Virus record (IMG/VR): IMGVR_UViG_3300044511_000163
Coordinates: 1-46,773 of that record
Reading direction: 5' to 3' (one strand)
DNA length: 46,773 nt
From: a virus
The translations under genes were made by a program, and so were the position numbers. This document shows positions 5,553-46,558 of the stretch, piece after piece. The notes beneath the pieces are model-generated. The model did no database searches. It worked only from the letters and a program-made list of their open reading frames with translations, and was not told where the DNA came from. Numbering within the stretch: the first letter of the stretch is position 1; the number at the start of each line of letters is the position of its first letter.

Positions 5553-5622
5553 CGGCACGCCAGAAAAACCGAGACGCCGCTTGCAGCAAGCCAGCGGGCG
5601 CGGCTACCATTTGCGCCGTCAC

Positions 5623-8778: not shown

Positions 8779-8879
8779 AGTATATCCGCTACAGCGACGT
8801 TCTTTTGCTTGCTTCCGAGTTGGCGAGGAACGGCAAGCACTGGAACAACTCAACCATCAACAACACACGACTCCAATGA
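8775..8879 (+). CDS. 34-residue ORF bridging DGQHR and PAPS-reductase genes
   Basis: The GTG at 8775 overlaps the upstream TGA, and the TGA at 8877-8879 overlaps the next ATG (ATGA), so this frame exactly links two large genes. The peptide begins VKYIRYSDVLLLASELARNG, a short amphipathic helix, and has no known family. It may be a real small protein or mainly a device for translational coupling. Confidence 0.5.
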   Translation: MKYIRYSDVLLLASELARNGKHWNNSTINNTRLQ

Positions 8880-16571: not shown

Positions 16572-16997
16572 CTAGGAGAGCGTAATCAGACAGTTGACGT
16601 TGCGCACGATGTAGAACGCCGCGCCGCCCGTCAGGGCCAGGCGGTACTCTACGCGGTTCCGACGCCCACCACGGAAGCGGTAGTGCGCCTGGGCCGTGAT
16701 GGTGTGCTTGAATGTGTACCCGATGCTGTCAGTGATCCAGTCCGTGCCCGTCTGGAGAGCGGCGTAGAAGGGCGGACTGGCGGCTGCGTTGCCCAGCAGC
16801 ATGTAGACAGGCTCGGACGGGTCCGTGGCCATCGCGTCCCAGATGCGCAGCTCCCAGGAGGCGAAGCTGCTGGTGAACAGCGTGGCCTTGTCGGCGCTCT
16901 CCAGGCGGGCAAAGGTCGTCAGGTCCTCGCCGTCCAGAAGCGAGACGGCATCGGTAAGCCTCGCCACTACCCCACTGGCCTGCAGTGCGCCGGTCAT
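16572..16997 (-). CDS. Small beta-rich virion-like protein, 141 aa
   Basis: The ATG at 16997 overlaps the stop of the giant gene (ATGA). The sequence is strand-rich with Arg/Tyr pairs and no membrane segment, similar in style to the small beta proteins at 28624-29585 and 34174-35053. It sits between internal virion proteins and lysis genes. A tail or fibre-tip role is plausible but unproven. Confidence 0.6.
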   Translation of the reverse strand: MTGALQASGVVARLTDAVSLLDGEDLTTFARLESADKATLFTSSFASWELRIWDAMATDPSEPVYMLLGNAAASPPFYAALQTGTDWITDSIGYTFKHTITAQAHYRFRGGRRNRVEYRLALTGGAAFYIVRNVNCLITLS

Positions 16998-19900
16998 TGG
17001 CTAGCTCCAGTGCTGACGGTACCGCGCGCCCGCAGGCGCTCTCTGAGGCTGAGCTTGACGACCTCGGCCTGCTTGGACAGCTCTTTGGCGGTGGCTGACA
17101 TGGCTTCGTCCAGGGCGCGCGACCGCGACTCTAGCGCCTTGAGAGCCGCCCTCGCAATAGAGGCCATCTGGAGCGTCATGCTGGCCCGCTTGTCCGTGGC
17201 CCAGGCGGCCGTTCTGAGCACGCTCAGGCTGGCGATGGCGGTCTTGGCGTCCTCAAGCATCAGCCGCTCTGCGCGCTCGCCTTCCGTCTCCTGGTGCAGA
17301 TAGGAGTCCTGGCGCGCGTAGGCGTCCTCCAGCCGGTCGTAGAGCTTGGAGACCGAGTACGGCCGCGTCCCGGCCTCGCCGCCAACGCGCATGACCCGGC
17401 CCAGGATGGTGATGTCGGCCGGCTCCCACTGGCGCAGCTTGGAGTCGCCAGCGAGCACGTCGGCCAAACCGAGCGCGTCTGTCGCCACGCCACCAAAGAC
17501 GTTCTTGATGAGGTGGTCTATGCGCAGCGGCGAGGCGTGCTCAGGGAAAGTCTTGCCCAGCCACACGGCCAGGCCGCTTGTGTATTCGTTGAACTGGCCT
17601 CCCGCCGGGCCAGTCTCCGTGAGCGCCCGTGGGACGATCGGGCGCTTGGTGTAGAGGTCCACGTTGCGCGCCTGCTCGTAGGCGATCTTGGCTGTGTGCG
17701 GTATCAGCGGCGGCGCCAAGCCAGCCATGCCAACGCCGATAGACCGCATGGCCAGCCCTTTGTCTTCCTTGTAGAGCGCGTCCAGGAGCATCAGCGGCAT
17801 CATCACCAAGCATCCGATCTCCGGAGGGATCGGGATGCGCACGAGCTGTCTTGCCTTCTCGCCAGGCACGCGCACAGGGAACCAGATGTTCCGCATGCGC
17901 TCCTCGGGATCCAGCTCGTTCCACCAGTCGTCGTCTTTGTGCCGCCACCACAGGGCCACAACGAACGCCTGCATGGCGGCGACGCGAGCGGCGAACTGCG
18001 CCGGATCCCGCCGCGCTGCACGAACGAATGCGCGGACGCCCTGGATGGAGGGGTTGAAGAACGGGACGTACTGGTTCCACACGGCCCCGAGCCGGCCAGC
18101 GGCGGCGAAGTCAACGGTCACTTCGCGGCCGGCGAGCATGGCGTCGATCATCACGTCGAACGTCATCGGATCGCCCGGCTTCCATCCGTGCTGCTCAAGA
18201 GTCAGCCGCATTTCGAGCGCGCGCGGGACGTTCTCGCTGAACTGCAGCACGTCGCGCACGTAGTCGATGAACGCCTGGCACAGATGCGTCCACGAGCGCA
18301 CTTCGAGCGCCTGTCGGGCCAGGGTCTTCGTCAGGCTGCGCGCGTAACTGCGGCTGTGAGGCAGGTCGCCACGCAGGCTGGTCGCCATCCCGATGCCCAT
18401 GCGATCGTAAAGGTCCAGAATCTCGCTCTTGCCAATACGGCCGCGCGTTGCAGCGCGCACGAAGGCTCGTGGGTAGAGCCCCATGTACCAGCGGACCATG
18501 CGGAACAACTGGAAGATGTCGCCGCGCGTCGTCATGTAGAGCGTTAGCGCGTCGCGCAGCGGTCCCGTAACAAGCGCGAAGCTGGCCCGGAGGCCAGTGA
18601 CACCGAGCTTGAACAGCGTTGCCGGGTGCTTCCACAGCCAGCGTATGATCCAGTGGACATCGGCAGGGTTGGCGCCCATCAGCGCTTCGAGCACGCCGGG
18701 GTCCACCTGATACATCTGGACTGCGCCATCGTCGCCGTAGCGGAACAGGATGGCTTCGCCAGTTTTGGCCTTGTAGAGCGGCGCGTGGAACGTGACGATC
18801 CGCGCCAGCGTCTTGCGCAACATCTGATCGACGTACGCCTTGATCTCATCCGCGCTCATGTCCTCTGTCACGCCATGGGCGATGGCTTGCTGGAGGATCT
18901 GCGCACGGATCTGCTCGATCGACTGGAGCGGCTCCAGGCCAGCGCGACGCAGTTCATCGTTCGCTGCTTCCAGGACATCCTCGATCGAGGCGTGATACGC
19001 CTCGGCGATCTCCGGGCTGACCGGCTCGATGATCGAGCCAGAGCGCGGAGTGCTGCGGCCCCATTCGAGCAGAGCCGTGATAACGGCCTCCCGGTGCGCG
19101 CGCTCCACCATGCGCTCCGTTTCGGCGACCAGCCCCTCAATCGGGTCCATCTTGAGCCTGCGCATGGACCCGTGTAGGTGGGCCACCAGCCCGCCGGGCT
19201 CGCCTCGGTAGTTGCGCGCCTCTTTCTCAAGCTCTGAGAACTCGCGCTGCAGAGAAATGTAGTTGCCGCCGGTCAGATCGTAGCCGAGTGCGGCGGCAGC
19301 CCTCGCCATGCGCTGCTCGCTCTCGCGGATGTTCTCAACGACGCTGGCGAACATGCTGCTTGCTTGAGCGCAGTAGTCGAGCAGCCCTTCGTGCCAGTCG
19401 TAGACGGCTGCGGCGATTTCAGCGAATGTCTTGTTGCCAGCCTTGGCTTCATGCAACTCGCCAAAGATCGTGCGCGCGTCATGGATGGTAAGCCCGGCGT
19501 CGCGTCCGCCTTCTGCGGCCAGCGCAATAGCGCGCCGCGCCCAAAGGTACAGCATGAACTCGCGCCCAAGGTCCGCGTCACGAACCGGCTTTAGGATTTC
19601 GCGCAGGCCGGGGTCGCCAGTGCCCTGCGCATTCAAGTCGATCATCCCTTTATCGACCATGTAGCGCGCGCGCTGGCGGTGCGACCCGCGAAACGCCTTG
19701 TATATCTCGTAGGGCCGCTTAGCTGCCCTGAGCGCCCAGCCGGTCTCGATCCAGTCCATCATAAAGCGGCGCAGCGCAGCCCTGGCTGAGAAGCGCCGCA
19801 TGCGCTCAAGGAGCGTGTCCCAGGAGGCGATCGACTTCCCAGCGCGCTCCTGCGCGCCTTGCTTGCGCCAGGCCGTAGCACGAACGCGGGCGCGCTCGAC

Positions 19901-22900
19901 GCGCCGCCCAAGCTCGGCGTTCTCCTTGAACAGCACGTCGCGCAACCAAGCAACAGCGTCCGGAGCGACCAGTTCCGGCTTGTCGGTGTTCAGGTAGTGC
20001 GCGAAAAACTCGGCCCATCCTTCGCGCACCTGGAGCCAGTGCTTAGCGTTCGGATAAAGCGCGAGCCCCAGCTTGTGAATCTGTTGAGCCGCCTTTGCGG
20101 TGACTTTCGGCGGCACCCACACGGGCGACTCGTCGCCAATCTTCCAGTTGTTGAGCGCGTCGTCGAGCGCGTGGCCGAGCTCGTGCGACGCCGTATACAC
20201 GTCGTTGTGCCGACGCATACGCACGACCGCCCAGAGGAGCTTGAAGATGCCGAGGGCCTTGCGCGATCCCGGCCCGAGCCGGCCGTGCCGGATGGGCGTC
20301 TCGACACCATGCACGGCAGCGATGGCGTGGTTGATGGACGCGATCACGTCCCTTGCCGAGACAGGGCCGCCTTCGGGCATCTTCTCGGGCGCTTCGGCAA
20401 CGCCGGCCAGGCCAGAGGCGATCGGCACGCCCTCGCCTGGGTGCGACATCCGGGGGCTGGCTTCTGCTGAGCGCCTTTGCTTTCTCTGCTCGACCTCCTC
20501 AATCGGGTTCTGGCTGGGCCGTCCCATGCGATCCGGGTGACCAGGAGGTAGGAAGCGCGCCATGGAGCCAGACACGCTGAGGCGCAGCGTGTCGATGACC
20601 TTCGATTCCGCGCCGTTGTCAGCCTCTTCGGTCTCTCCGTCGATCGCCGAGATCACGCCGGCAGGGTCGATCTGTTGCTCGCTACGCCCGGTCGCCACCT
20701 GGATGGCGCCGTCCTCGTCGAATGAGTAGTCACCGCTCACGGCTCCAGCGAGAGCCGAGTCCACGCCGCGCACGATGGCGCCCATGTCGCGCATGCGGGC
20801 AGCAATCCTGGGGCGCAGGGTCGCCTGCTCGAACGGCACCTGCTCAGCGACCAGCCACTCGACGTAGGCTTCGGACTGCATCCCGTAGCGACAAATGCGC
20901 GCGTTGACCTGCGCAGCGCCGGTCGCGGTCCACGGCAGGTTGATGTTCACCTGCCCGCGCGGCCTGTTGCCCACGGTGTCCTGGAGCGAGAGTCCGGTGC
21001 CTCCCTTGGCCATGGTGCAGATGAGCACCTTGAGCTTGCCGTCCAAGAACTCGCGCTTGGCGGCCGTCGCTTCGGCTGCCGACACAGCGCCGGTGTAGAC
21101 GCCGCACTGCTGTCCGAACTTCGCCTGGATCATCTCCGCCGTGGAGGGCAGTTCCACGTCGATCCCGGCATCGTGGAACGCTTTGGCGATGGCGATGATG
21201 CTGGTTGCGAACGGCGGTGGGCCGGCTTCACGCCCAGCCTTCCACTCGTCGTACATGGCCCGCATTTGCGGGTATGTGTAGAGCGTGTCGCTCTTGATCT
21301 TGCCGCCGTGGTACTTCACCCAGCCGTCGGACAGGCGGAAGCGGCCAACGTGGCGGTCGGCTTTGGTCTCGACGAAGACGACGACCTGGCGCCCGGCGTC
21401 AAGGTGTGACTGGATTCGCTCCAGGGCCGCCTCGATCTTCGACGCCTCAAGAATGCGCTTGAGAAGCCCAGCGGCGTGCATGCGGATTGTGCGATTGTGG
21501 GAACCGGCGCCCGCCAGGGCCGCCTGGTAGGCGTCCGCCACGCGGTAATACAGGTCGAGCAACTCCGCGTTCGCTTTGACCGAGCGCAGCTCGCACGTCA
21601 CCTTGTCTTTGGGGAGCCGCGCGTCGCGCTGGGTCATCAGAGCGCGGCGCGAGAACCAGTTGCGCGCTTGAGTAAGGAGCGTCCCCCGCACGCTGCCAAG
21701 CGGCCAATAGAGCGTGCCTTCGGTGCCAGAGGCATCAGATGGCTTCTTGCCGCCCTTCACCTTGGCGCCGAATGTCTTGGCCCACTCAACAAACCCGCCC
21801 GTATCTTCGCCCTCGAACACGCCGGTCGCGGCGAGGTAGCGGCACTGCACGGGGTTCTCGAACGGCGTGGCAGACGTGAACAGCGTGAAGCGCGCGTTGG
21901 CCATGAGCTTTTGAGCGGCAGCGCCCTGCGCCGACATCACGTTCTTGATGTTCTGAGACTCGTCGAAGATCACGACGGCGCCGGTAGCGTCGGGCACAGC
22001 GCCGGCTCCGAGCGCGTTGTATGTGACGAACTGGACGCCCTCCAGCCCGTAGTCGTTGAGGTCGCCCTTGATCTGCTCGATGAGGTCCTGGTTCATCGTC
22101 GCGTAGATGAACCGCTTTGCGCCGCGCTTGCGCATTTCGCGGATCGCTCCACCGAGAACGAACGTCTTTCCGGTGCCGGCCTCGTTGGCCAGCAGGAAGC
22201 ACGCCTTCTGCTTCACGTAGCCGAAGACGGCCAGGGCAACGTCGCGCACTTGGTCGGCCAGCACGTCGGGCGGGATTCCGTGCTTTGCGCCGCGCATGAT
22301 GAGCGCTTCGGTCTCGGGGGAGACGTACTCGCCGACATTGGCCGCCTGTAGGCGCTCGTCGTCACGGCGGCCGTCCTTGTCGCGCGCCCTGGCATACTTC
22401 TCTTGTTCGGCGCGCGCCTTGGAGGTTATGACCTCGCCTTCCGGCGTCACCTGGCCGCGCGCGATCAGCTCGCGGCCAATCCTGATGATGGGCGGCGTTT
22501 GGCCAAGAGCCTCGTTGGTATAGAAGACCCAGCGGCGCTGCTGGCTGTCCCAGCGCCCTCCGATGTCGCGCAGGAGATCACGAAACGGCTTGGTGTTGCC
22601 AGAGACGTACGACCAGCCCGAGTACGGGCCAGTTATCACCATGCCCGACGCACGGGTGGCTTTGGCCGCCTTCTCGTCGCCTTCCTTTTTCTGCTCCTCG
22701 GCGCGGCGCTCCTTGCGAAGCAAGTCTGCGATCTGGGCTGTCGGATCGTGCCCGGTCGTCAATCTGCGGAAGTGCTCGTTGCCGATGGTGTACGGCGGGA
22801 GCAGTCCGAGGCTGTTGAGTAGCGACTTGTTCTCGCTGAGCTTGCCCGTCACGGCGTAGAACTTGGCGCCGGACTTGGTGGTGCGCTCTACGACGCGCAA

Positions 22901-25900
22901 TCCCTCGCTGGCCAGCAGCTTGGCGTCCTTCTCGTGCTGGCTCAAGCCTCCGCCTTCGTCGCCGGGCGCACCTTCTTCCGATGGCGTCTCTGACTCCTGC
23001 TCGTCCGGATCGCGGTCGTTGCGGTCAGCAAGATCGGATGGCGGCAGCCCATCGCTGATCTTCGCGCAGTCGGCCTCGCTGGTCATCTTGGAGCGCACCG
23101 CCGGCCCGACCATCCCGCGCGCCATCAGCCAGGCCGGCATCAGGTAGCGGTCGAGCTGAGCGCCGTACATGGCGCGGCACGCCTCGGTGAACTTGCGGAA
23201 GTCGCTCGTACCGCCGTCCACCGCCATGGCCCTGGCCAGCTCGGCGGCAGCAGCGATGAGTTCCGGGTCCCATTCCGTGTTGGCCGCTTCGGTCGCGGCC
23301 ATGCCCAGCTCGGTTACGGCACTTTTGGTGGAGTCTGGCCCATCTCCGAGCTTCTTGACCTTCTTGGCTCTGCGGCGGCCTGTTTTGCCTTCCCGTACAG
23401 ATTCGCCCGGCACACCGCCACCAGCGCCTTCTGCATCGCCTCGTTGAACGCGCGCGCTCGATGACCGGAACTGGGCGGTGAAGATTTCTTTGGCTCGTTC
23501 TTCAATCGACTTTCCTTCTGATCCGAAGATGTCCGTCTGACCGCTGGCAAGATCGTCGGCAGTCTGAGCCAACGCGCTCATCCTCGCCGCGAACGCGCCG
23601 GCCGTGTCGTCGCTCATGGCAATCGCAAGCTCGACCGCCATCCGGTCTTCCTGCCACGCCTCGGGCGTGATGCTCTGCTGGCTCACGGCTTGCTCGACGC
23701 TCGTGCCAGAACGGCGCGCGAACACCTGGGCGTCGAGCGAGTTCAGGAAGATCGTCGAGAACTCAGACCACCGCGACTTGAGGCGCACAAGGTACGGCAG
23801 GGCCTTGATGACCTGCTGGCGCGTCGCATCCGACATCTCCTCAAGGCGCCGCACATCGTTCACGACCGAGCCGAGCAGTGCCGATTCGATTGTCGCCTTG
23901 GCTGCCGCCGTCGGCTTCGGCGGCAGGCCGGCGCGCCCACTCGGCTCGATCATCGAAACGATGTCGGACTGATCGAGCACCCCGGATTGAACGAGGAGGA
24001 TGGCGACGTTCTTCCATCCGGCCGGGTTGTTCAGCGTCTCCGCAAGCGTGCCGTCGCCGATTTCGGCGGACAACGCCGACGCAGCTTCGGCAGTCAGCTT
24101 GCGGCCACGCGACACGGCCTCGGTCGTCGCCGTCTTGGCCGTCGTCAGCGGCTTGTTCAGTTCGCGCGAGAGGCTGCCGGGCTCTCCCTCGCGGCCACGT
24201 TCGACGATGCGGACGAGCACGGGGTTGGCGATCCCTGCCGCTTGCGCCTCATCGACGCCGAACTGGGAGGCCACGGCCAGAGTCGATTCACGCAGCCGCG
24301 TCGCCTGTTCTTGGCCGCGCGAGTAGGCGAGCTGGACCGCCATCGAGCGCGCGTTGCCGCCGAGGACCACGCCGCCCTCCGTCACGATCGGCGGACCGTC
24401 CACGGCCGTCGGGGTGTCCGTGACGAGCAGGCTGGGCTTGGGGTTCCTGGCGATCGACTCCACGGTCTCCCGCGAAGCCGCGCCAGCCGTGGGGTCCTCG
24501 TAGGGCCGCTCGTTGATGTCGCCAGCCGGGTTGCGCCTGAACCCCTGGCGCGCGTCGTGAGAGGGCACGAGCGAGTCGGCCTCGACGATGGCATAGGTCA
24601 CGGGCAGCGACCGATTCTCTGGCAGCTCAAGCGACGCCTGCCGACCGCGCGGCCCGGTGAGCTTGGCGCTTGCAGGAGCCGCAGCCGCAGCGGCCTCTGG
24701 CTCCTGCGGCGCTGGCGCAGCTTCCTCAACTGGCTGCGGCTGTTCGGCCGGCGCTTCTTCCTGTGTAGCAGCCGGCGCCTCCTGGGCGGCCGGCTCTGCG
24801 GCTGGCGTCGTCTCCGGCGCGGCTTCCGTCTCAGCCGCCGGCCGCTTCTTGCCCAAGAGCTTTTCCAGCCGCGCCCTGGCCTGCCGGACAGATTCAGGAA
24901 CCTCTGGTTCGGCCTCGGGCTTCGCCTCTTCGGGCGCGGTCGGTGCCGGAGGAACTTCCTCCTCATCTTCTTCTTGTTGCTCCTCCTCTGGCGTAGGCGC
25001 AGGCGGCGTCTCCTCCTGCACGGGGGCCGGCTCGAAGTCCTCCGGATCGCCTTGCGGCGGCGCGGACTCCTCCGGCTTCTCGGGCTCCTTGGGCTTCTCG
25101 GGCTCCTTGGGCGTCTCGGGCTCCTTGGGCGTCTCGGGAGGCTCGGCGGCGGGCTCTGGCTCGACTGGCCCCTGCGGCTCCGGCGCAGCGCCCTCCTCCG
25201 GCGTAGGCTCGGGCGACGGCGTTGTGGGTTCCGCCGTAGTGGGAGCGGCCGGCGCGGGCTCTGGCGGGACGCCAGCTTTGGGCTGCGTGCCGCTGGGCGG
25301 TCGAGTCTTCTTCTTCGGAGCAAGGAGAATGTCCGCAACAGCCGCCGTGCCGCTGGGGAAGGCGAAGGCCGTTGCCATCACGGCCAACTCCCTTCTCGAC
25401 GGGATGACCTTCTCCCAGCCCTGGAGACCGGCCGCTGCGCGCAGAAAATTGCTGAAAATCTCTTCGCCTATTTCCACAGCGATGCCGTGGTAGGCGAACT
25501 TGTTGAGCAGCACGTCGCCGATGATCCTGGAGGCGCTCTCCTTGCCGGCCTTGGCCATCGCCCAACGGATCACGTCGGATTGGAGCTTCGTGATCTTGTT
25601 CACGAACGGGATGTAGTCCGCTGCTCCGCCAGCGCGCTCGCCTAGGAACTCGATCGTCTGATTGAGCCAGGCGCGTGGAAGCTGCTCCAGGAATGTCGTG
25701 GTTTGGTTGGCCAGCGCGAAGTAGAAGGTATCGCCGTCGATGCCGGCCTCGCGGATCTCAGGGATCGTCGCTTCGAGCGCCTCGGGCATCCAACGACCAG
25801 TGACCGCCGCTGCGGCGGCGGAGTTCACTGTGGCACGCAAGGCCGCGTCGGCCGCTTTGAGGCTAGACTTTCCAGCTACATTCACCACCTCTTTTGCCGC

Positions 25901-26425
25901 AGCCTTCGTGATCCCGCTCGTGATGGCGTGCTCCACTCCCGCAGCTACAGCCTTGCGCTGGACAACCTTCTCTCCTGCGGCGAAACCGCCGGTTATCCAG
26001 ATGTCGATGGCGAAGCCGGGCACCTCCAGGAGCACGTCGAGCACATCGTACCCGAACGATGTCGGCCGCCGCCGCTCGGCCATGAAGTCGGCCAGATTTT
26101 GTTCGTCTTCCGGTGTCCCCCTTCCCTGCTTCACGCGCTTGGCGCTCATCAGCGTGCTGCCCAGGCGGACGGTCGAAGCCGTGGCGCCGACCCAGAGTGG
26201 CAGGCGTTCCAGCGGCCGCTCGAACGCCTCGCCGATAGTCTTCGTCGGGTAGAACGAGCGGGGGACGCCGAGGTGGCCAGGCAGGCGGCGCTCCTCGGCG
26301 AGAGCGCCAAACACGCCTTCAAGCGGGTGCTTGGGTTTCCTAACGACGGCGAAGCCGGTTTCTTCTGGGCCAGCGTTGGCGCGGGCCACGATGCCAGCGA
26401 TCTGCTTCTTGAGCGCGTCGTTCAT
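16994..26425 (-). CDS. Giant polyvalent internal virion protein with ParB-like, helicase and metallopeptidase domains, 3143 aa
   Basis: Domains in order: helical/hydrophobic N-terminus (1-370); disordered Pro/Glu-rich linker (375-600) with PKEPE repeats; DdrB/ParB-like domain (about 605-760, ending near GGNARSMAVQLAYSRG); two nucleic-acid-binding-like modules with GNTKPFRDLL-x-IGGRWD (about 1180-1310); SNF2/DarB-type helicase, Walker A K1420 in AGTGKT, box II DESQ (1488-1491), SATPFEN near 1520, helicase C-terminal half to about 1860; zincin motif HELGH (H2081, E2082, H2085) with E2139 in GWAEFFAHYL as probable third ligand; long helical C-terminus (2200-3143) like large-polyvalent-protein-associated domains. 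It follows gp14- and gp15-like genes, the slot of T7 gp16, so it is probably ejected into the host with the DNA. Confidence 0.88.
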   Translation of the reverse strand: MNDALKKQIAGIVARANAGPEETGFAVVRKPKHPLEGVFGALAEERRLPGHLGVPRSFYPTKTIGEAFERPLERLPLWVGATASTVRLGSTLMSAKRVKQGRGTPEDEQNLADFMAERRRPTSFGYDVLDVLLEVPGFAIDIWITGGFAAGEKVVQRKAVAAGVEHAITSGITKAAAKEVVNVAGKSSLKAADAALRATVNSAAAAAVTGRWMPEALEATIPEIREAGIDGDTFYFALANQTTTFLEQLPRAWLNQTIEFLGERAGGAADYIPFVNKITKLQSDVIRWAMAKAGKESASRIIGDVLLNKFAYHGIAVEIGEEIFSNFLRAAAGLQGWEKVIPSRRELAVMATAFAFPSGTAAVADILLAPKKKTRPPSGTQPKAGVPPEPAPAAPTTAEPTTPSPEPTPEEGAAPEPQGPVEPEPAAEPPETPKEPETPKEPEKPKEPEKPEESAPPQGDPEDFEPAPVQEETPPAPTPEEEQQEEDEEEVPPAPTAPEEAKPEAEPEVPESVRQARARLEKLLGKKRPAAETEAAPETTPAAEPAAQEAPAATQEEAPAEQPQPVEEAAPAPQEPEAAAAAAPASAKLTGPRGRQASLELPENRSLPVTYAIVEADSLVPSHDARQGFRRNPAGDINERPYEDPTAGAASRETVESIARNPKPSLLVTDTPTAVDGPPIVTEGGVVLGGNARSMAVQLAYSRGQEQATRLRESTLAVASQFGVDEAQAAGIANPVLVRIVERGREGEPGSLSRELNKPLTTAKTATTEAVSRGRKLTAEAASALSAEIGDGTLAETLNNPAGWKNVAILLVQSGVLDQSDIVSMIEPSGRAGLPPKPTAAAKATIESALLGSVVNDVRRLEEMSDATRQQVIKALPYLVRLKSRWSEFSTIFLNSLDAQVFARRSGTSVEQAVSQQSITPEAWQEDRMAVELAIAMSDDTAGAFAARMSALAQTADDLASGQTDIFGSEGKSIEERAKEIFTAQFRSSSARVQRGDAEGAGGGVPGESVREGKTGRRRAKKVKKLGDGPDSTKSAVTELGMAATEAANTEWDPELIAAAAELARAMAVDGGTSDFRKFTEACRAMYGAQLDRYLMPAWLMARGMVGPAVRSKMTSEADCAKISDGLPPSDLADRNDRDPDEQESETPSEEGAPGDEGGGLSQHEKDAKLLASEGLRVVERTTKSGAKFYAVTGKLSENKSLLNSLGLLPPYTIGNEHFRRLTTGHDPTAQIADLLRKERRAEEQKKEGDEKAAKATRASGMVITGPYSGWSYVSGNTKPFRDLLRDIGGRWDSQQRRWVFYTNEALGQTPPIIRIGRELIARGQVTPEGEVITSKARAEQEKYARARDKDGRRDDERLQAANVGEYVSPETEALIMRGAKHGIPPDVLADQVRDVALAVFGYVKQKACFLLANEAGTGKTFVLGGAIREMRKRGAKRFIYATMNQDLIEQIKGDLNDYGLEGVQFVTYNALGAGAVPDATGAVVIFDESQNIKNVMSAQGAAAQKLMANARFTLFTSATPFENPVQCRYLAATGVFEGEDTGGFVEWAKTFGAKVKGGKKPSDASGTEGTLYWPLGSVRGTLLTQARNWFSRRALMTQRDARLPKDKVTCELRSVKANAELLDLYYRVADAYQAALAGAGSHNRTIRMHAAGLLKRILEASKIEAALERIQSHLDAGRQVVVFVETKADRHVGRFRLSDGWVKYHGGKIKSDTLYTYPQMRAMYDEWKAGREAGPPPFATSIIAIAKAFHDAGIDVELPSTAEMIQAKFGQQCGVYTGAVSAAEATAAKREFLDGKLKVLICTMAKGGTGLSLQDTVGNRPRGQVNINLPWTATGAAQVNARICRYGMQSEAYVEWLVAEQVPFEQATLRPRIAARMRDMGAIVRGVDSALAGAVSGDYSFDEDGAIQVATGRSEQQIDPAGVISAIDGETEEADNGAESKVIDTLRLSVSGSMARFLPPGHPDRMGRPSQNPIEEVEQRKQRRSAEASPRMSHPGEGVPIASGLAGVAEAPEKMPEGGPVSARDVIASINHAIAAVHGVETPIRHGRLGPGSRKALGIFKLLWAVVRMRRHNDVYTASHELGHALDDALNNWKIGDESPVWVPPKVTAKAAQQIHKLGLALYPNAKHWLQVREGWAEFFAHYLNTDKPELVAPDAVAWLRDVLFKENAELGRRVERARVRATAWRKQGAQERAGKSIASWDTLLERMRRFSARAALRRFMMDWIETGWALRAAKRPYEIYKAFRGSHRQRARYMVDKGMIDLNAQGTGDPGLREILKPVRDADLGREFMLYLWARRAIALAAEGGRDAGLTIHDARTIFGELHEAKAGNKTFAEIAAAVYDWHEGLLDYCAQASSMFASVVENIRESEQRMARAAAALGYDLTGGNYISLQREFSELEKEARNYRGEPGGLVAHLHGSMRRLKMDPIEGLVAETERMVERAHREAVITALLEWGRSTPRSGSIIEPVSPEIAEAYHASIEDVLEAANDELRRAGLEPLQSIEQIRAQILQQAIAHGVTEDMSADEIKAYVDQMLRKTLARIVTFHAPLYKAKTGEAILFRYGDDGAVQMYQVDPGVLEALMGANPADVHWIIRWLWKHPATLFKLGVTGLRASFALVTGPLRDALTLYMTTRGDIFQLFRMVRWYMGLYPRAFVRAATRGRIGKSEILDLYDRMGIGMATSLRGDLPHSRSYARSLTKTLARQALEVRSWTHLCQAFIDYVRDVLQFSENVPRALEMRLTLEQHGWKPGDPMTFDVMIDAMLAGREVTVDFAAAGRLGAVWNQYVPFFNPSIQGVRAFVRAARRDPAQFAARVAAMQAFVVALWWRHKDDDWWNELDPEERMRNIWFPVRVPGEKARQLVRIPIPPEIGCLVMMPLMLLDALYKEDKGLAMRSIGVGMAGLAPPLIPHTAKIAYEQARNVDLYTKRPIVPRALTETGPAGGQFNEYTSGLAVWLGKTFPEHASPLRIDHLIKNVFGGVATDALGLADVLAGDSKLRQWEPADITILGRVMRVGGEAGTRPYSVSKLYDRLEDAYARQDSYLHQETEGERAERLMLEDAKTAIASLSVLRTAAWATDKRASMTLQMASIARAALKALESRSRALDEAMSATAKELSKQAEVVKLSLRERLRARGTVSTGASQ
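25068..25141 (-). repeat. 18-bp tandem repeat coding Pro-Glu-Lys linker
   Basis: About four copies of an 18-base unit (GGGCTCCTTGGGCGTCTC on the + strand, with single-base changes) encode PETPKE/PEKPKE. They lie in the disordered linker of the giant protein and can vary in number by slippage. Confidence 0.8.
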
Positions 26426-26449: not shown

Positions 26450-27967
26450 CTAACGCTCTACATGACGACGCGCGGCGAAGTTTGAATGCCAGCGCGGCGG
26501 ACTCGTCCTGTCAGGCGTGACTTTCTTGGGAGGCTGGTTGGCCCCCTGATTGTTCGTCTTGCGCGCCGCCTCATCCTCCTCGTCCAACGGCGCTCCGATG
26601 AGGCCAAGGAAACGGTGTCTCTCGTCCTCGGCTTCGGCTTCGGCGCGCTCTACGCCGCGCATGTATTCATCGAAGCGTCGCTCGATCTCGGCCTGGTCCA
26701 CGCCTTTCAGCGCTTCCAGCAGGCGCTTCTCGCTCTCCGGATCGAGCATTTCGTTTTCGCCGAGCCCAAGCGCCTTGGTCACCGCGTCGATGTCTACGGT
26801 CTTCTTGTACGCATCGACCGCAGCGGCAATCTGATCGTTGCTCAGCGAGACCGGCTTGGATCCACTGGCCTCCGGCGGAGCCGGCGCGGTTTCTTTGTTG
26901 GGATCGAGCGGTGCCGGCAATCCGAGCGAGGCGGCGAGCTTGGCGGCCTCGTCGTAGAACGCGGACGGCCGCCCGGAGGGCTTGTAGAACCCGGTTGAGT
27001 CAGGCACCAACTTCTCTGGGTACAGCTTCTCCAAGACCTTGATGCCGGCGTCGTAGGCGTCCCAGCTCGCCTTGGTTTTGTCGGCTCCGAGCGGAGCCGC
27101 CTTCGTGCTCGGCGCGGGCAACAGCTCGTTGTAGACATCCTGGGCTCCGCGCGTGACCTCCTCGGGGCTGGAGAACGGCGTCATCAAGAAGCGCTGGTGC
27201 GCGACCGCGAAACGATCGAAGTTGCCGGCGGCTGCCAGCGGCCCGCCCATCTGTTGTAGGGCGACCGCCTGCTCCATCATGCGCTGGCCTTCCTCTTGCT
27301 GGCGCATCAGCGTCGCATTCTCTTTCGCCCGCGCATCGAGAAGGTCGTCTACCGCCTCCTGAACCACCTCGGTCGATGGGCGCTGCCGTCCACGGCGGTC
27401 AACGGCCGTGGGACCTTCCAGCATTTCGATGAGGCGAGTGCCGGTCTCCTGATCGACGGCAGGCTGCGCCCCCTCGGCCGTCGGCTGCATCAGCTTGGTG
27501 ACGTTGCTGGCGAGCTGCTCGCGGCGGTACTGGGCCTTGTCGGCATCGAGGCCCTGTCGCATGCGGGCCAACTCCAGAGTGCGGCCCAGCGGATCCATGT
27601 CCTTCATCAGCCGGGTGGCTTCGCCGATCGACTCGCCCCACTTGCGCGAGAGAGACTCCGGCAGATCCGGCAGATCGCCAAAGGTCTGCAAGACTTCGCG
27701 GGCGAAGGCCGTGTCCTGCTGGTACTTGTCCGCGCTGGCCTCGCGCGCGCTCTCGGCCCGCTCGTCATCAACCTTCTGCCTGTCTAGATCAAGCTTCTCG
27801 CGCGCGATATCTTGGCCAGCGGCGACAGCGTTCTTCTCTTCCTCGTCCTTCTTGCGGCGTCGCTCCAACTCGCCGATGTCGAGCTTGGCCTTGGCAAGAG
27901 CCTCGGCCATGCGGCCAGCGGAGGCGATGCCCTCCATCCAGGGTGCCGGGTTGATCTTGAAAGGCAT
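26450..27967 (-). CDS. Internal virion protein, T7 gp15-like by position, 505 aa
   Basis: A long, mostly helical, highly charged protein with strong coiled-coil stretches (LDIGELERRRKKDEEEK, KLDLDRQKVDDERAES) and no membrane segment. It has no close motif, but the size, composition and place between the gp14-like gene and the giant gene fit the second ejection protein of podoviruses, which helps form a channel through the periplasm. The ATG at 27967 begins MPFKINPAPW. The C-terminus is basic and disordered. Confidence 0.75.
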   Translation of the reverse strand: MPFKINPAPWMEGIASAGRMAEALAKAKLDIGELERRRKKDEEEKNAVAAGQDIAREKLDLDRQKVDDERAESAREASADKYQQDTAFAREVLQTFGDLPDLPESLSRKWGESIGEATRLMKDMDPLGRTLELARMRQGLDADKAQYRREQLASNVTKLMQPTAEGAQPAVDQETGTRLIEMLEGPTAVDRRGRQRPSTEVVQEAVDDLLDARAKENATLMRQQEEGQRMMEQAVALQQMGGPLAAAGNFDRFAVAHQRFLMTPFSSPEEVTRGAQDVYNELLPAPSTKAAPLGADKTKASWDAYDAGIKVLEKLYPEKLVPDSTGFYKPSGRPSAFYDEAAKLAASLGLPAPLDPNKETAPAPPEASGSKPVSLSNDQIAAAVDAYKKTVDIDAVTKALGLGENEMLDPESEKRLLEALKGVDQAEIERRFDEYMRGVERAEAEAEDERHRFLGLIGAPLDEEDEAARKTNNQGANQPPKKVTPDRTSPPRWHSNFAARRHVER

Positions 27968-27970
27968 GGC

Positions 27971-28621
27971 CTATGTCTTCGCGGACGACGAAGAGGGCGT
28001 CTGCGCATTCGCGTTTGTCATTTTGCTGAGCATCAGCAGGTACGCCCAGGGCGAGAGGTCTGGCGTGGTCACGCTGTCGTCCACCTGGCTGATGAGGTCG
28101 ATCATCGTGTTGCCGTATTGGCCAGCAACGTCGGCCTTCTTGCCGAGGATGTTGGCCAGCGCGGCGCTGGAGTTGCCGATGAGCTGGGCGCCGCCGAGCT
28201 TGGTCTGTGCCAGGGCCGAGGCGTGCGACGAGGAAATGTCAGCAACGGTGCGGGCCACGTCGGCGCTCATGCCGCGCAGCGCAGCGTCGTAGGCGCTGGT
28301 CCCCAGGCGGCCGGATCCAGCCATCCCGGCCTTGAGGCCACCAAGCGCTGATGCGAAGCCGGCGGCGGCATTGGAGACGGCTCCAGCCTGGCTCGCCCTG
28401 ATGGCTGTCTCTGCGCCTGTCGCGGCCTTCTTGTTCTGCTCGTGCTGCAGCGTGGCGAGGCGCTGAGCTTCGGAGAACTGCACGTTCTGGATCGTTGACG
28501 TGCGCGCGGCCTGCGCCTTGGCTTGGCGCAGCCTCTTCTTCGCGGACGACGAAGAGGCGAGGCTGCTGAGCGCTCCGCTGGCAACCTGCGCACCGAGAAG
28601 TAGGGGCACCCATGCAACCAT
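27971..28621 (-). CDS. Internal virion protein, T7 gp14-like, 216 aa
   Basis: The start VAWVPLLLGAQVASGALSSLA and the alanine/serine/glutamine-rich helical body (FSEAQRLATLQHEQNKK) match podoviral gp14-like ejection proteins, which insert in the outer membrane and open the way for DNA. It lies just before the gp15-like gene. The peptide SSSSAK occurs near both ends, encoded by an identical 21-base sequence (27976-27996 and 28537-28557). Confidence 0.78.
   Translation of the reverse strand: MVAWVPLLLGAQVASGALSSLASSSSAKKRLRQAKAQAARTSTIQNVQFSEAQRLATLQHEQNKKAATGAETAIRASQAGAVSNAAAGFASALGGLKAGMAGSGRLGTSAYDAALRGMSADVARTVADISSSHASALAQTKLGGAQLIGNSSAALANILGKKADVAGQYGNTMIDLISQVDDSVTTPDLSPWAYLLMLSKMTNANAQTPSSSSAKT
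27976..28557. repeat. 21-bp direct repeat at both ends of the gp14-like gene
   Basis: Positions 27976-27996 and 28537-28557 are identical over 21 bases, starting TCTTCGCGGACGACGAAGAG. Each copy is also a small inverted repeat (TCTTCG/CGAAGA). It encodes Ser-Ser-Ser-Ser-Ala-Lys in the same frame. Confidence 0.75.
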
Positions 28622-29585: not shown

Positions 29586-30145
29586 TAGCGGAAGGCTCCT
29601 CGCTGCAGAACGGTGTCGTGATTGCGGGACAGCGCCGAAATGCCGGCCTGGCGTCTCGCCGATGACCGAATGTTGGGGGCTTCCACTTGGTCGAGCCTCG
29701 TCGCCTGTTCGCTGGTCGTAGCCAGCGTGGCGTCCTGCGCGGCGGTCTGCTTGGCCATCACCTGCATGGCGTCGGCCATTGTCGCGCCTGGCAGGCCGGT
29801 CAGCCCGCGCTCGTTCTGGATGTCGGCGAGCCTCGGTCTGGCAGCAAGCCGGCCGTTGCTGTCTACGGTCATCGACAGCGCGAGCTTGATGGACACGCGC
29901 TTGGGGCTGCCGGTCGTGAAGACCAGCGGATCGCCAAGGCGCAGCGCCAGGTTGCCCTTCTCGTCCACGAAGAAGTAGTCGGTCAGATCAAGCGCAAGGT
30001 TGCCGGCCTGATCGAGCGTGACAGGAGCCTGGGTCGGCGGGCTCGTCATAGCCCGCGCGCCACGGCGGAGCCTCGGGTCGCTCGACCCCAGGAGGGGCGA
30101 GAGCCCGGCGACTCCGGGAATGCCGGCTCGTCTACGGGCGGTCAT
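29585..30145 (-). CDS. Hypothetical tail-region protein, 186 aa
   Basis: A basic, Arg/Gly-rich start, a strand-rich middle (LALDLTDYFFVDEKGNLALRLGDPLVF) and a helical C-terminus (TMADAMQVMAKQTAAQDATLATT). The helix could be a trimeric stalk, as in fibres. The ATG at 30145 overlaps the stop of the nozzle gene (ATGA). No family recognised. Confidence 0.6.
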   Translation of the reverse strand: MTARRRAGIPGVAGLSPLLGSSDPRLRRGARAMTSPPTQAPVTLDQAGNLALDLTDYFFVDEKGNLALRLGDPLVFTTGSPKRVSIKLALSMTVDSNGRLAARPRLADIQNERGLTGLPGATMADAMQVMAKQTAAQDATLATTSEQATRLDQVEAPNIRSSARRQAGISALSRNHDTVLQRGAFR

Positions 30146-33100
30146 CTGGGCCGCCTCCGCCCGCCTTCGTGCATGTCGAGCATGATGGATTCTACTGCCC
30201 AGCGCGACGCGGCGCGGCGCGACCGCAGCCTGAGCCAGAGGTAGTCACCAGACGCCCGCGTGCGCACCGTGCTTCCGTGCCCAGCGCGGAAGGTTCCGTG
30301 CTCCTGCGGCGTGTCGCGCACGTCGGGCACGAGCGAGGTATACAGCTCGTAGTCCAGGTCCCCCTGGGACGCGGCCAAGATGGCCTTCAAGGCCGTGACC
30401 TTGGTGCGCATGTCGCTGTCGCGCGGGCTGATCGGTCCGATCAGCACGTCACTGTCGATGGCCCGGCCGTCGTCGTCCGTGGCCGTCTTGGAGATCCGCT
30501 GGACGTAGCCGTTGGCGCTGCCGATCACGGTGCAGCGATCGTTGGCCGTGTCGGAGTCGATGGTGAGCGCGGACGCCGGGTTGAAGAGGCTGTAGGTCTG
30601 GCCGCTGTCAGGCCCGAAGGTCACCGGCCACCAGGCGTTCTTGCGGCGCGACCAGAACCAGTGCCGCAGGTTGGCGAAGTTGGATGGGGTCGTGACCGTG
30701 TAGGGCACGACGTACAAGTGGATGCCTTCGTGCTCGTCGTCCCAGGCGAGCTTGAACATGTAGACGCTGAGGTCCACGGCGGCCATGAGGCGATCTACGC
30801 GGTGGCGCGTGATCTTTCTCGGCGGCCCGAGCGGGTTGAAGAGGTAGACGCCTCCGCGCGATCCAGCGAAATAGCTGCGCCCTTCGTCGTCGCGGCACCA
30901 GGAATCCTGGCCGAAGGCCATGCCGGTGACGTTGGTGATGAGGTCGATGGACGAGCCGCCGAGCATTGGATCGCCCGTCACGCGATAGATCGTCGAGTCG
31001 CCTCCGATCGCCAGGAGGTCGTCGCCGATCGGCATGAGCGAGTTCACGATGTCGGGCATCGGCCCGATGCCGGAGGTCGTGCCGTCCACGGACTGAGCGA
31101 CGTTCACGATCGGCGGGTTGGTGTCCCAGTCGTAAGGATTCCCGATGGCGCTGGCGTGCCACGAGTGCGGGGCGTTGTCGCCACGGGCCAGGATCACGCG
31201 GCCGAAGCAGAGCGCGATCAGCTTGTAGCGCGGCGGAATCTTCCCCGCCGTTTTCGACTTCCACTCGTAGAGCTTGTCGTCGCGCGGGTTGTAGCGGAAG
31301 TAGCGCTCGCCGTCGGTGAAGAAGCGCTCACCGTAGGCGGTGACGCTGTAGATGCACGGCCAGTTGGTGAACAGCGGGTTCGTGAGGCCGGCGTCGAGCG
31401 TAACGATCGTCGAGGCCGACGACGTGAACTTGTAGAGCTGGCCGACCGACACGGCCAGATTCGTCGTCTGCCGCAGGCTCCCGACGGTCTGGTCGGCCGA
31501 GGCGAGGCGGACCTTGCGAAGACCCTGCTGAGTAGAGGCGTCGTTGCCGGTCGTGTCGCAGGCGATGTAGATGAACTCCGGCACGTCGATGGACGAGCCT
31601 GTGCCGTAGTTGGGGTAGGTTTGGTGCAGCGCGACGGCCTGGCCGGCTAGATAGTTGTTGTTTGAGCCGTCGGTGTCGCGGTAAAGCGCTGGCGCTGTCG
31701 GTGTTCCCGAGTCTGGTTCCCAAAAGAACACGGTCACGGAGTTCGTGTTGAAGGCGCCGTCATCCCACGGGATGTAGACGCGCTGACCGAAGACGGCCGT
31801 TCCGTTGGCGATGTTCTCGTCGCGCTGCATCTGCACGATCGTCGTGGTCGGCGCGTTGAGCGTTGGATAGCTGAAATAGGACAGGTTCGTGAACGTGTTG
31901 CCGTTGTCCACGATCGTCCGGATATACATTGTTGCCGTTCCGGCTGACAAACCTGACGCCGGATAGCTCGGCGGCGAGCTGACTGGGTATGTTGGGCCGA
32001 CGGTGGAGACGTAACGCGTGCCGCCAAACTCGACGACTTCTACACCGTAGCCGTGGCCAGCGAAGGCTTGAGGGGTTCCGCCAGACTTGAAGGCGTCCGA
32101 TGCCGCCCACACGCACTTCCCAGCCTTGTCGAACTTGGCTGTCACCATCGACGCGGCCAGCAGGTAGCGCTCATTGGTCGCGACCGAGAAGCTGTCCGTT
32201 GGCGGCTTGGGATAGTGGTTCGCGCCCGTAACCGTGTCGTACTTCCAGGTGTGCGAGTTGGGCAGGATGTTCCACACGCCGTACTCGTGGCAGGCGTGAC
32301 CCTCGATCTGCGACACCAGCCCCGACGAGGCCGGCGACGCGGCCACTCCGGCAGTGAGGCCGTAGTTGTAGGTGCAACCCATCTGCATGACCATCCCGTT
32401 GAACGGGTAGTCGAATGGGTTGTCGCCGGTGTCCGCCTGCGCGCGTCCGATCGTGCTTGCGCCAGACGCAGACCACAGCGCCGTCTGGTACGTAGACATG
32501 GTGGCGCCGTCGCTGGCCCGCGTGAGCGTCACCTGCGTACCATTGATGCGCACGTAGGAGTTGGCCGCCGATCCCGGCCTGACGTACCACACGATCATTA
32601 GGGGCGTGTTGACCTTGCCGCCAGTGACGCTGCCTCCGTTCGAGAGGTCGTAGTAGTAGCTCTGCGCGCCGTCGCGCACGCAGATGTAGCCATAGGTCGT
32701 GTCGAAGCCCTTGCCGACCACGGTGCCCTTGGTGTTCAGCATCAGGATCTTGGCGTCGGAGCCGCCCTGCGCGCCGGGCGACGTGTGCAGCGCCGCGATG
32801 ATGTCGTACTTCGGAGATGCCTGGTCTTCGAGATCCTGTGAGCCGGGGACGATCAGGCACCAGAAACAGAAGGACGAGTTCTCGAACTTCGGGATCATGG
32901 CGCCGCCGCCGGACGAGCTGGCCTCGTTGACGGCGATAGGTGATGTCAAGGCCGATGCGCCAACCATCGTCGGCGAGCCGGTCTGCGACTTGCTGGATCC
33001 GTAGAAGAGAAGCCCCGGCATGCCGCCCAGCGCGTTGCTCAGGTACTTCGGCGCGATGGCGGCAGACGACGCCTGGAAGAACGAGTTGTAGTTATCGACG

Positions 33101-34170
33101 CTGATGTGCCGGCCGCTGCCGGAGAGGTCCGACATCAGGACGAGTCCGTCGCCGTCCTTGAGGTCGTCCTTGCCGTAGCCGTTGCCTTGGCACTGGAAGG
33201 CGTCGTAGAAGCTCCAGAGACCGCCAGCGCCGGTGCCCAGCTCCTTCACCGGATTCCACATGAAGGCCGGGTGGGTCGTGATCCTGGAGGCGGTGGCCGT
33301 CGGATCTACAGCGCGCGAGATCACGCCGTCGGAGTCCTGCACGGGGTAGGGCGACGGCTGGCTCGTGACGTAGATCGTGCCGTCGGTCCAGACGGCGAGC
33401 TGGTTGCTCGGCCAGGGAAGGGGGCGTTCCAGGATGACCGTAGGATCTGGGGCGTAGATGTCGTCGTAGACGACGAGGTAGCTGCGCCGTTTCAGGTCGT
33501 CGTTCTGGATCGTGTAGAGCTTGCCGTCGGCGAACCGAATGCAGGTGACGTAGCGGCCAAGCACAAGCTCCCAGGAGAGCACTGCCACCTGCTTGGGCTC
33601 GTTCTTGATGATGGCCTTCACGTCGGGGACCTGGCTGTACCCCCACATGCGGGCATCTTTCTGCTGCCCGCTCTCCGTCACGGCCACGAACAGGAAGCCG
33701 GTCTCCTTGTCCACGTCCATGGCCTGAATCTGGTGGGCCGGGTCGGGCGTGTTGACCGTCCAGCGGACCAGCTCCACGGCGTCGGAGTTGTATTTGATGA
33801 GCCCCTGCAACCCGTCGATGGTGTAGAGGTTGTTGAACTTGTCGATCTTGATGTGGCGCGGCTTCGTTTTGCTCGGCGTGTCGGCCTTCCACTCGTAGGT
33901 GTTCTTGAGCGCGGCGTTGCTGAGCTGCGTGTAGGTGATGCCGGGCTTGTCGAACGTCACTTGGGCCAGGTGCGTCACCGGGTTCGTGCCGTTGATCTGC
34001 GCCGAGCAGAACTTGGAGTGCCCGTAGCGCTGGGCCAGCATGCGCCGCCCGGTCGTGGGGTCGAAGTCGAGCGCGTTCTTAGCGTCGTTGCTCGACGTGA
34101 CGCCCTGCTTGCCGTGGGCTTCGCCCTGATCTAGCCCATCGAGAGGCAGGACGATTTCTTCGAGCGCCAT
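30142..34170 (-). CDS. Tail nozzle-like protein with inserted LamG-type domain, 1342 aa
   Basis: The N-terminal NALDFDPTTGRRMLAQRYGHS resembles the start of T7 gp12-type nozzle proteins, and blocks of WxxD and GxYLFNP motifs in the second half suggest a beta propeller (for example DSTIYRVTG, GGVYLFNPLG). Around residues 345-630 lies a jelly-roll/LamG-like stretch (GDGLVLMSDLSGSG to EYGVWNILPN), probably a carbohydrate-binding insertion, making the protein about 500 residues longer than T7 gp12. It would close the tail and contact the receptor. A GGAG ribosome site precedes the ATG. Confidence 0.8.
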   Translation of the reverse strand: MALEEIVLPLDGLDQGEAHGKQGVTSSNDAKNALDFDPTTGRRMLAQRYGHSKFCSAQINGTNPVTHLAQVTFDKPGITYTQLSNAALKNTYEWKADTPSKTKPRHIKIDKFNNLYTIDGLQGLIKYNSDAVELVRWTVNTPDPAHQIQAMDVDKETGFLFVAVTESGQQKDARMWGYSQVPDVKAIIKNEPKQVAVLSWELVLGRYVTCIRFADGKLYTIQNDDLKRRSYLVVYDDIYAPDPTVILERPLPWPSNQLAVWTDGTIYVTSQPSPYPVQDSDGVISRAVDPTATASRITTHPAFMWNPVKELGTGAGGLWSFYDAFQCQGNGYGKDDLKDGDGLVLMSDLSGSGRHISVDNYNSFFQASSAAIAPKYLSNALGGMPGLLFYGSSKSQTGSPTMVGASALTSPIAVNEASSSGGGAMIPKFENSSFCFWCLIVPGSQDLEDQASPKYDIIAALHTSPGAQGGSDAKILMLNTKGTVVGKGFDTTYGYICVRDGAQSYYYDLSNGGSVTGGKVNTPLMIVWYVRPGSAANSYVRINGTQVTLTRASDGATMSTYQTALWSASGASTIGRAQADTGDNPFDYPFNGMVMQMGCTYNYGLTAGVAASPASSGLVSQIEGHACHEYGVWNILPNSHTWKYDTVTGANHYPKPPTDSFSVATNERYLLAASMVTAKFDKAGKCVWAASDAFKSGGTPQAFAGHGYGVEVVEFGGTRYVSTVGPTYPVSSPPSYPASGLSAGTATMYIRTIVDNGNTFTNLSYFSYPTLNAPTTTIVQMQRDENIANGTAVFGQRVYIPWDDGAFNTNSVTVFFWEPDSGTPTAPALYRDTDGSNNNYLAGQAVALHQTYPNYGTGSSIDVPEFIYIACDTTGNDASTQQGLRKVRLASADQTVGSLRQTTNLAVSVGQLYKFTSSASTIVTLDAGLTNPLFTNWPCIYSVTAYGERFFTDGERYFRYNPRDDKLYEWKSKTAGKIPPRYKLIALCFGRVILARGDNAPHSWHASAIGNPYDWDTNPPIVNVAQSVDGTTSGIGPMPDIVNSLMPIGDDLLAIGGDSTIYRVTGDPMLGGSSIDLITNVTGMAFGQDSWCRDDEGRSYFAGSRGGVYLFNPLGPPRKITRHRVDRLMAAVDLSVYMFKLAWDDEHEGIHLYVVPYTVTTPSNFANLRHWFWSRRKNAWWPVTFGPDSGQTYSLFNPASALTIDSDTANDRCTVIGSANGYVQRISKTATDDDGRAIDSDVLIGPISPRDSDMRTKVTALKAILAASQGDLDYELYTSLVPDVRDTPQEHGTFRAGHGSTVRTRASGDYLWLRLRSRRAASRWAVESIMLDMHEGGRRRPR

Positions 34171-34582: not shown

Positions 34583-35053
34583 CTAGAACGTGATGATGCG
34601 GAAGTTCAGTACGACGACGACGTTCGTGGCGCCGCCGAGGCTGGTGGTCTTGATGCCTAGGTGCGGCCTCAGCCCGGTGGGCTGCCGGTACAGCGCGCCG
34701 TTCGGTCCGCCAAGCGGGATGGCCTCCGAGCGCGTGATCGTCGTTGCGCCTGTGGACAGCGCGCGCACGGTGCGGATCGTGTTTTCCACGCCGTCGATGA
34801 TGAGGAGGTCGACGTTGCCGGTCGCGGTGCCGCTGCTTGCTTCTAGGAGCAGCGAGTCCACGCTGAACGAAAGGACCCTCGTTGTGGTGCCGGCGCCGAG
34901 CAGCTTGTAGAAGAGACTGTCTGTAGCGGCGTCGCCCCAGGTGGCGCTGGAGGCGACGTTGGCACTCCCGAGCACGCCGTCGGTCGGGTAGTAAGTCGTG
35001 TTGATGGCGCTGACGGTCGCGCGCATCGACATGGAGTATTCGGCGGCGCTCAT
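34583..35053 (-). CDS. Small beta-sandwich virion protein, 156 aa
   Basis: Begins with SAAEYSMSM, then repeated hydrophobic strands (VDLLIIDGVEN, VVVVLNFRIITF). It overlaps the adaptor gene by ATGA, and the next gene is related in style. It lies between adaptor and nozzle, where podoviruses often place small connector or decoration proteins. Function not known. Confidence 0.65.
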   Translation of the reverse strand: MSAAEYSMSMRATVSAINTTYYPTDGVLGSANVASSATWGDAATDSLFYKLLGAGTTTRVLSFSVDSLLLEASSGTATGNVDLLIIDGVENTIRTVRALSTGATTITRSEAIPLGGPNGALYRQPTGLRPHLGIKTTSLGGATNVVVVLNFRIITF

Positions 35054-46481: not shown

Positions 46482-46558
46482 GCGCCTGTAGCTCAGTTCG
46501 GTAGAGCCGCTGTTTCGTAAACAGCAGGTCGCTGGTTCGAGGCCAGCCGGGCGCTCCA
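46482..46558 (+). tRNA. tRNA-Thr, anticodon CGU
   Basis: A complete cloverleaf can be folded by hand: acceptor GCGCCTG/CGGGCGC with one G-U, D stem GCTC/GAGC, anticodon stem GCTGT/ACAGC with loop TTCGTAA (anticodon CGT), variable loop AGGTC, T stem GCTGG/CCAGC with TTCGAGG. CCA is encoded after a T at the discriminator. G1-C72, C2-G71 and anticodon bases G35-U36 are the threonine identity elements known in E. coli. It reads ACG codons, which are frequent in such GC-rich genes. Confidence 0.9.

Follow-up and report, generated by a model that had tools for sequence, protein, structure and literature searches.

The 46,773-nucleotide window analyzed here (positions 1 to 46,773 of the IMG/VR virus record IMGVR_UViG_3300044511_000163) contains a gene that takes up 20% of this 46.8-kb record and encodes a protein of 3143 residues. 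The gene lies on the minus strand (16994..26425), is transcribed from 26425 towards 16994, and consists of a single open reading frame (ORF) of 3143 codons with an ATG start and no internal stop. The GC content by codon position is even across its length (0.44-0.56 at second positions, GC2, and 0.75-0.86 at third positions, GC3), and the reading frame therefore reads as one coding unit and not a chance opening. A first-pass annotation of the window had described one continuous frame for a polyvalent protein in the place of gp16, the T7 ejection protein. The frame proved intact, on a strand (minus) that the annotation had not specified, and the polyvalent assignment stands as well, as a ddrB-ParB domain, an AAA_34 helicase, a zincin and an LPD38 domain, that is, several unrelated catalytic and LPD domains, are joined in one chain that is encoded among late virion genes. 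The explanation that we favor is that the product is probably a delivery chassis carrying enzyme cargo, and the last and largest member of a three-gene ejection cassette.

The N-terminal region of the protein (residues 1-370, 25316..26425; this and all features below are on the minus strand unless indicated) matched no family. It is followed by an acidic linker rich in Pro, Glu and Ala (residues 371-590, 24656..25315), which a composition scan delimited at residues 368-612 with a net charge of -33. Residues 603-740 (24206..24619) correspond to a DdrB-like ParB domain (Pfam ddrB-ParB, PF18763, E 1.8e-17). A profile built from five homologues of this domain, DdrB itself being left out, matched DdrB of phage P1 at 178 bits, a BLAST comparison of the domain with P1 DdrB gave an E value of 3e-9, and the active-site arginine that is conserved in the GNAR motif of the family (PMC5512222) is present at residue 693 (GNARS, 690-694). 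The DdrB/ParB-like domain that had been proposed is thus confirmed. Domains of this kind are predicted DNases or NTPases (PMC5512222).

The following domain, at approximately residues 1251-1920 (20666..22675), was identified by PF13872, by PHROG 62/16 and by its motifs as a superfamily 2 (SF2) helicase/translocase of the AAA_34, strawberry-notch-like type. AAA_34 was the best Pfam family for the helicase (residues 1406-1471, 2e-8), accompanied by a weak Helicase_C match at residues 1763-1848; the PHROG helicase families 62 and 16 were matched, and the main helicase motifs are intact (GTGKT at 1417, DESQ at 1488, SATP at 1518 and QVNARICR at 1839). Over 701 residues the domain shows 41% identity (E 4e-132) with the helicase encoded by L144, an IMG/VR metagenomic contig, and this second helicase also matches Helicase_C_4, the strawberry-notch C-terminal domain. 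The first-pass annotation had called the helicase SNF2/DarB-type. The superfamily is retained but the DarB type is not, as P1 DarB and the window helicase share only 33% identity over 60 residues (E 0.001); membership in the P1 DarB group was rejected on this similarity and on the lack of an N6-adenine methylase match in the 3143-residue protein.

Residues 2021-2171 (19913..20365) correspond to a predicted zinc metallopeptidase (zincin) with the motifs HELGH (2081-2085) and EGWAEF (2135-2140), as the first-pass annotation had indicated. Both motifs are shared by about 16 relatives, in nearly every case directly before the conserved C-terminal module described below. An AlphaFold2 model was obtained for residues 1984-3143 from 61 sequences, with a predicted local distance difference test score (pLDDT) of 76.7. 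In a VIA-align comparison of the zincin of this model, the best matches were Certhrax, anthrax lethal factor and PPEP-1, with Z scores of 8.0-6.3 over 124-152 residues (7-8 for Certhrax and anthrax lethal factor, over about 133-152 residues, and 6-7 for PPEP-1). A Z of 8 is modest, yet the lethal-factor and PPEP entries are one family and are grouped at the top of the match list. The predicted zincin would accordingly have a lethal-factor/PPEP-like fold. Iyer and colleagues reached a lethal-factor fold for the metallopeptidases (MPTases) of polyvalent proteins by means of a profile search (PMC5512222).

The C-terminal module (residues 2177-3143, 16997..19897) was delimited with alignments A1, A2 and A5. 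Of its approximately 970 residues, Pfam covers only the 189-residue LPD38 domain, matched here at residues 2832-3007 (17405..17932; PF18857, E 7.5e-24). To our knowledge, LPD38 is catalogued without an assigned role, as a domain restricted to the polyvalent proteins of phages. The AlphaFold2 model of residues 2557-3143 has a pLDDT of 87 and is largely helical, as is T7 gp16. Matches to ALPK1, channels and dynein in the fold lists were set aside because they are weak and cover the C-terminal helical stretch only. A first scan with the single 3143-residue protein returned no relatives, such a scan reaching close ones only, and an alignment search of IMG/VR gave at least 400 relatives of the module. 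Much of the module can be aligned with proteins of the cultivated coliphage PTXU04 (QBQ76639.1), Aeromonas phage phiARM81mr and Vibrio phage 1.232.O, and likewise with proteins of Achromobacter phage CF418P1 and the Pelagibacter phages HTVC034P and Lederberg. In nearly all of the relatives examined it ends a few residues from the C-terminus, and the part preceding it ranges from about 300 to more than 3000 residues, a tenfold spread. Three proteins (L013, L015 and L021), unlike nearly all the others, have an internal module followed by several hundred residues. In pelagiphage HTVC010P (L143:13743-15257) the module is annotated as an ORF of 504 residues among several short ORFs where its relatives have one gene of about 1200 codons, which could represent a fragmented gene or sequencing errors.

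Among the giant proteins, LPD38 was found in all 15 of 15 (the window protein included) and the other domains vary: InPase, LPD1, LPD5, ART, methylase, helicase and ParB. Such domain recombination is the rule among polyvalent proteins. The combination of a ddrB-ParB domain with a strawberry-notch-type helicase and no methylase on an LPD38 chassis was not seen elsewhere among the relatives whose domains were scanned. The closest architecture among the matches listed is that of L144, which has the same helicase and whose peptidase and module show 30% identity over 1188 residues with ours. It differs by about 1200 extra residues (735-1943 of L144:1-9075, a contig piece in which the 5' end of the gene is missing) placed between the helicase and the peptidase, with N6-methylase, RadC and ART domains. 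By this comparison, the peptidase sits at the junction of cargo and chassis.

The position of the module in other phages is informative. In the shorter relatives, the genes preceding the module correspond in size to T7 gp11, gp12, gp13, gp14 and gp15. Profiles for gp11, gp12 and gp14, expanded from sequences of T7, HTVC034P and a Manatee Spring podovirus, revealed the order gp11, gp12, gp14 and then the module at 28 of the 125 loci, some few of these being re-cut copies of one contig. Because the seeds of the gp11 and gp12 profiles included T7 itself, the independent evidence for the slot is that of the direct pairwise matches in one locus (L063), where homologues of T7 gp11 (1e-24) and gp12 (1e-96) are followed by genes for 132, 194 and 702 residues and then by the module protein. 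The closest chassis among the matches listed (L147, 33% identity) belongs to these 28 loci and is preceded by genes of the gp11, gp12 and gp14 families and by a gene for 507 residues. In the window, the gene directly upstream of the giant one encodes 505 residues and occupies the gp15 position (26450..27967), assigned by position and size only as it has no match, and the one before it encodes 216 residues at the gp14 position (27971..28621), assigned likewise by position and size, with an N-terminus that is hydrophobic by eye. Further upstream are a gene for 1342 residues at the nozzle (gp12) position (30142..34170), placed by position only as it has no significant match, an SU10-type head-tail adaptor (35050..35817; PF24175, E 2.8e-7, above the cut-off) and an SU10-like portal protein (40349..42088; PF23899, E 2.7e-6, just below the cut-off). 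The giant gene shares its strand and run with the portal, capsid, adaptor and nozzle-position genes and is transcribed after them. Since portal and adaptor match SU10 families, the window phage, which is uncultured, is a podovirus of another tail lineage than T7; a search for close relatives of its portal found none. Of the place of gp16 that had been claimed for the protein, the position is therefore upheld by the relatives (the 28 loci and the pairwise case), and descent is not, given the lack of detectable similarity to gp16 and the SU10-like portal and adaptor. Similarly, the preceding genes described as gp14-like and gp15-like agree in place and size, with no detectable similarity to T7 gp14 or gp15.

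Evidence on the virion comes from related proteins. Profile A2, whose first member is the 3143-residue protein, matched gp01 of Vibrio phage VvAW1 at 573 bits and gp70 of phage BcepIL02 at 226 bits. The latter (4667 residues) contains transglycosylase, methylase, SNF2 helicase, LPD3 and LPD38 domains and is encoded after genes for 234 and 530 residues. In phage JC1, a relative of BcepIL02, gp69 was detected by mass spectrometry in virions purified on cesium chloride, with 51 unique peptides, and gp67 and gp68 were found too (PMC9144972). The link of JC1 gp69 to the module is given by the LPD38 assignment in that paper and by the authors' statement that gp69 resembles the Bcep22 homologue most closely (PMC9144972). 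Because of this homology (BcepIL02 gp70, and JC1 gp69 in virions) and of the gp16 slot, the 3143-residue protein is very probably packaged in the virion. Precedents are on record: P1 DdrB is processed beforehand, and the virion RNA polymerase (vRNAP) of phage N4 is packaged whole, its MPTase region being needed for encapsidation (PMC5512222).

Since the C-terminal region is retained by relatives at the position of an injected protein, the whole is probably a chassis for delivery with enzymes as its cargo. The C-terminal 970 or so residues would be a packaging and ejection chassis, loading the protein into the head and, during infection, carrying it across tail and envelope along with the 216- and 505-residue partners. 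The N-terminal 2000 or so residues would be the cargo, composed of the ParB domain (a predicted nuclease or NTPase) and the strawberry-notch-type DNA motor, which would reach the cytoplasm and, in the first minutes, either act on the incoming phage DNA or counter host defences. The zincin, located between the two, could cut the protein and free the cargo, either in the head or after entry. Delivery of the cargo to the cytoplasm is likely, by the precedent of N4 vRNAP and the P1 Dar proteins (reviewed in PMC5512222), whereas self-cleavage by the zincin, proposed from its position alone, could equally well be right or wrong. Slightly poorer prospects are given to an anti-restriction or DNA-protection role of the cargo. 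The suggestions of the first-pass annotation that the set could shield the genome from host nucleases and remodel host proteins are guesses, and because DdrB-like ParB domains are predicted to be DNases or NTPases, it is as plausible that the cargo degrades the DNA of the host or of rivals as that it protects the phage genome.

Several observations weigh against the chassis-and-cargo explanation. Many module proteins have no peptidase, and cutting is consequently not needed for the chassis to work. Neither the 505- nor the 216-residue protein showed significant similarity to T7 gp15 and gp14, N4 gp51 and gp52 or P22 gp20 and gp7 by tblastn, phmmer, hhalign or shuffled alignments; the mean Z of 1.05 for the 216-residue protein against the gp14 family in the shuffled-alignment comparison, with six null runs between -0.7 and 0.35, is not significant and is a hint only. 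The module showed no profile similarity to 47 T7 gp16 sequences (hhalign with A2, probability 0.04%), and T7 gp16 was absent among the Foldseek and VIA rows listed for two models, one of them with a pLDDT of 87; a gp16-like fold may nonetheless be shared. The range quoted for gp16-like proteins is 609-1337 residues (PMC8954989), and 3143 residues is well above it. Finally, the window phage is a metagenomic contig that was read from its genes alone. On the matter of size, giants beyond the gp16 range are found elsewhere, such as N4 vRNAP (3500 residues) and BcepIL02 gp70 (4667 residues).

Of the other explanations, the best preserved concerns the zincin only and is compatible with packaging: the peptidase would be an effector that cuts host proteins and not a self-processing enzyme. 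This is an option named by Iyer and colleagues (PMC5512222), and it suits the predicted fold, for which lethal factor, Certhrax and PPEP are the nearest matches. However, the usual place of the zincin at the boundary of cargo and chassis in about 16 proteins suits processing, and so does the processing of P1 DdrB, a protein with a domain of this sort (PMC5512222); we regard an effector as possible but doubtful. A second explanation, which we hold to be improbable, is that the protein is a true, highly diverged T7 gp16 homologue that gained cargo. Both proteins are largely helical and occupy the same slot, in some loci beside clear homologues of T7 gp11 and gp12, and gp16-like proteins diverge fast (PMC8954989). 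Nevertheless, the profile comparison and a Foldseek search with the model of pLDDT 87 gave no gp16 match, and no Pfam match to a transglycosylase was found anywhere in the 3143 residues, residues 1-370 included. For these reasons, it is safest to state that the protein holds the gp16 slot, without a claim of descent.

A slightly less probable alternative still is a head-morphogenesis protein that is packaged and whose enzymes act in assembly or DNA packaging, with no delivery to the next cell. The JC1 paper cites work that connects capsid morphogenesis with the antirestriction system of P1 (PMC9144972), and some virion proteins, such as P1 DdrB, undergo processing ahead of packaging (PMC5512222). 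Against this, the module stands in the injected-protein slot of many podoviruses and the cargo domains resemble those of proteins thought to act after entry (PMC5512222). An ordinary cytoplasmic early protein, encoded by chance after the late genes and absent from the virion, would agree with a phage known from its genes, but is very improbable in view of the shared run with the head and tail genes and of the virion location of JC1 gp69. An assembly chimera of two or more genes, conceivable as the record is a single metagenomic contig, is hardly credible given the even coding signal and the independent occurrence of this helicase-peptidase-module order in L144.

Other genes of the window were also inspected. 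Among the head-tail genes, a 442-residue protein (35793-37121) has a GASAGG motif and a weak feruloyl-esterase-like match (BD-FAE, E 0.0018). An AAA_5 (MoxR-type) ATPase (3092-4432, E 2e-11) adjoins a gene for 478 residues without matches. On the plus strand, a YqaJ-type exonuclease (E 1e-8) precedes a gene with a RecT-like appearance by eye (5581-7472), the sequence at 8603-10171 has a YGGGVNSAAMV motif resembling that of PAPS reductases and no Pfam match, and a tRNA-Thr (CGT) lies at the record's end (46482-46558). PAPS reductase genes are annotated also in BcepIL02 (gp67) and HTVC034P (gp12).

Phage polyvalent proteins are a known kind, and some are proven in virions. We found no report in the open-access literature that names the LPD38 module as a part of ejection or that describes its bare and loaded forms. 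Placed inside a larger conserved module of the gp16 slot that exists both bare and loaded, LPD38 would acquire a concrete role in packaging and ejection, which would also account for the many "DarB-like" and "methylase" annotations at the ends of phage tail gene runs. As a more tentative extension, to which we give less credit than to its failure, zincin and LPD38 module might constitute a general delivery chassis of the podovirus gp16 slot, from the nearly bare forms of about 1200 residues in Pelagibacter phages to those of more than 4000, in which the N-terminal cargo is swapped freely and the zincin frees the payload. If so, the set would amount to an injection device of natural origin that accepts cargo of many types.

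The known systems share different parts of this architecture. P1 DarB (2255 residues) is virion-associated and carries an SF2-type motor as the 3143-residue protein does, and differs in having a methylase. P1 DdrB (995 residues) has both the ddrB-ParB domain and a HELGH zincin, which is C-terminal, but it is a separate and smaller protein in which neither helicase nor LPD38 module was seen. The N4 vRNAP, gp50, is likewise a giant injected enzyme with an HExxH zincin and comes after virion proteins of about 150 and about 644 residues; profile A2 gave no convincing match to gp50, and the N4 neighbours also lack detectable sequence similarity. The sizes of the N4 genes gp54-gp53-gp52-gp51-gp50 (L190) run in a comparable sequence (structural, nozzle-size, small, middle and giant), with no detectable sequence similarity to the families described here. 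No homology was detected between the module and P22 gp16. In HTVC034P, gp44 (1229 residues) places the module in the gp16 slot, after the tail tubular A and B and internal virion protein genes, and differs as a nearly bare chassis with little cargo and no HExxH peptidase. VvAW1 gp01 has the module and an HExxH motif in common, with a nearby upstream gene annotated as "DNA ejection", and differs by a methylase, an SNF2 helicase and the lack of ParB. The "DarB-like" giants of the Bcep22 type share the module with LPD38, a helicase, an HExxH before the module and upstream virion genes for about 230 and about 500 residues; they differ by an N-terminal transglycosylase, a methylase, LPD3, a helicase of SNF2 type and the lack of a ddrB-ParB match. 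As it has no transglycosylase match, the 3143-residue protein shares their module, yet is not a full Bcep22-type DarB-like protein. T7 gp16, whose N-terminal lytic transglycosylase has no counterpart matched here, has in common with it the slot in the gene order, by gene families in relatives and by place and size only in the window, and the probable role: the 3143-residue protein probably does the job of gp16 in the gp16 slot.

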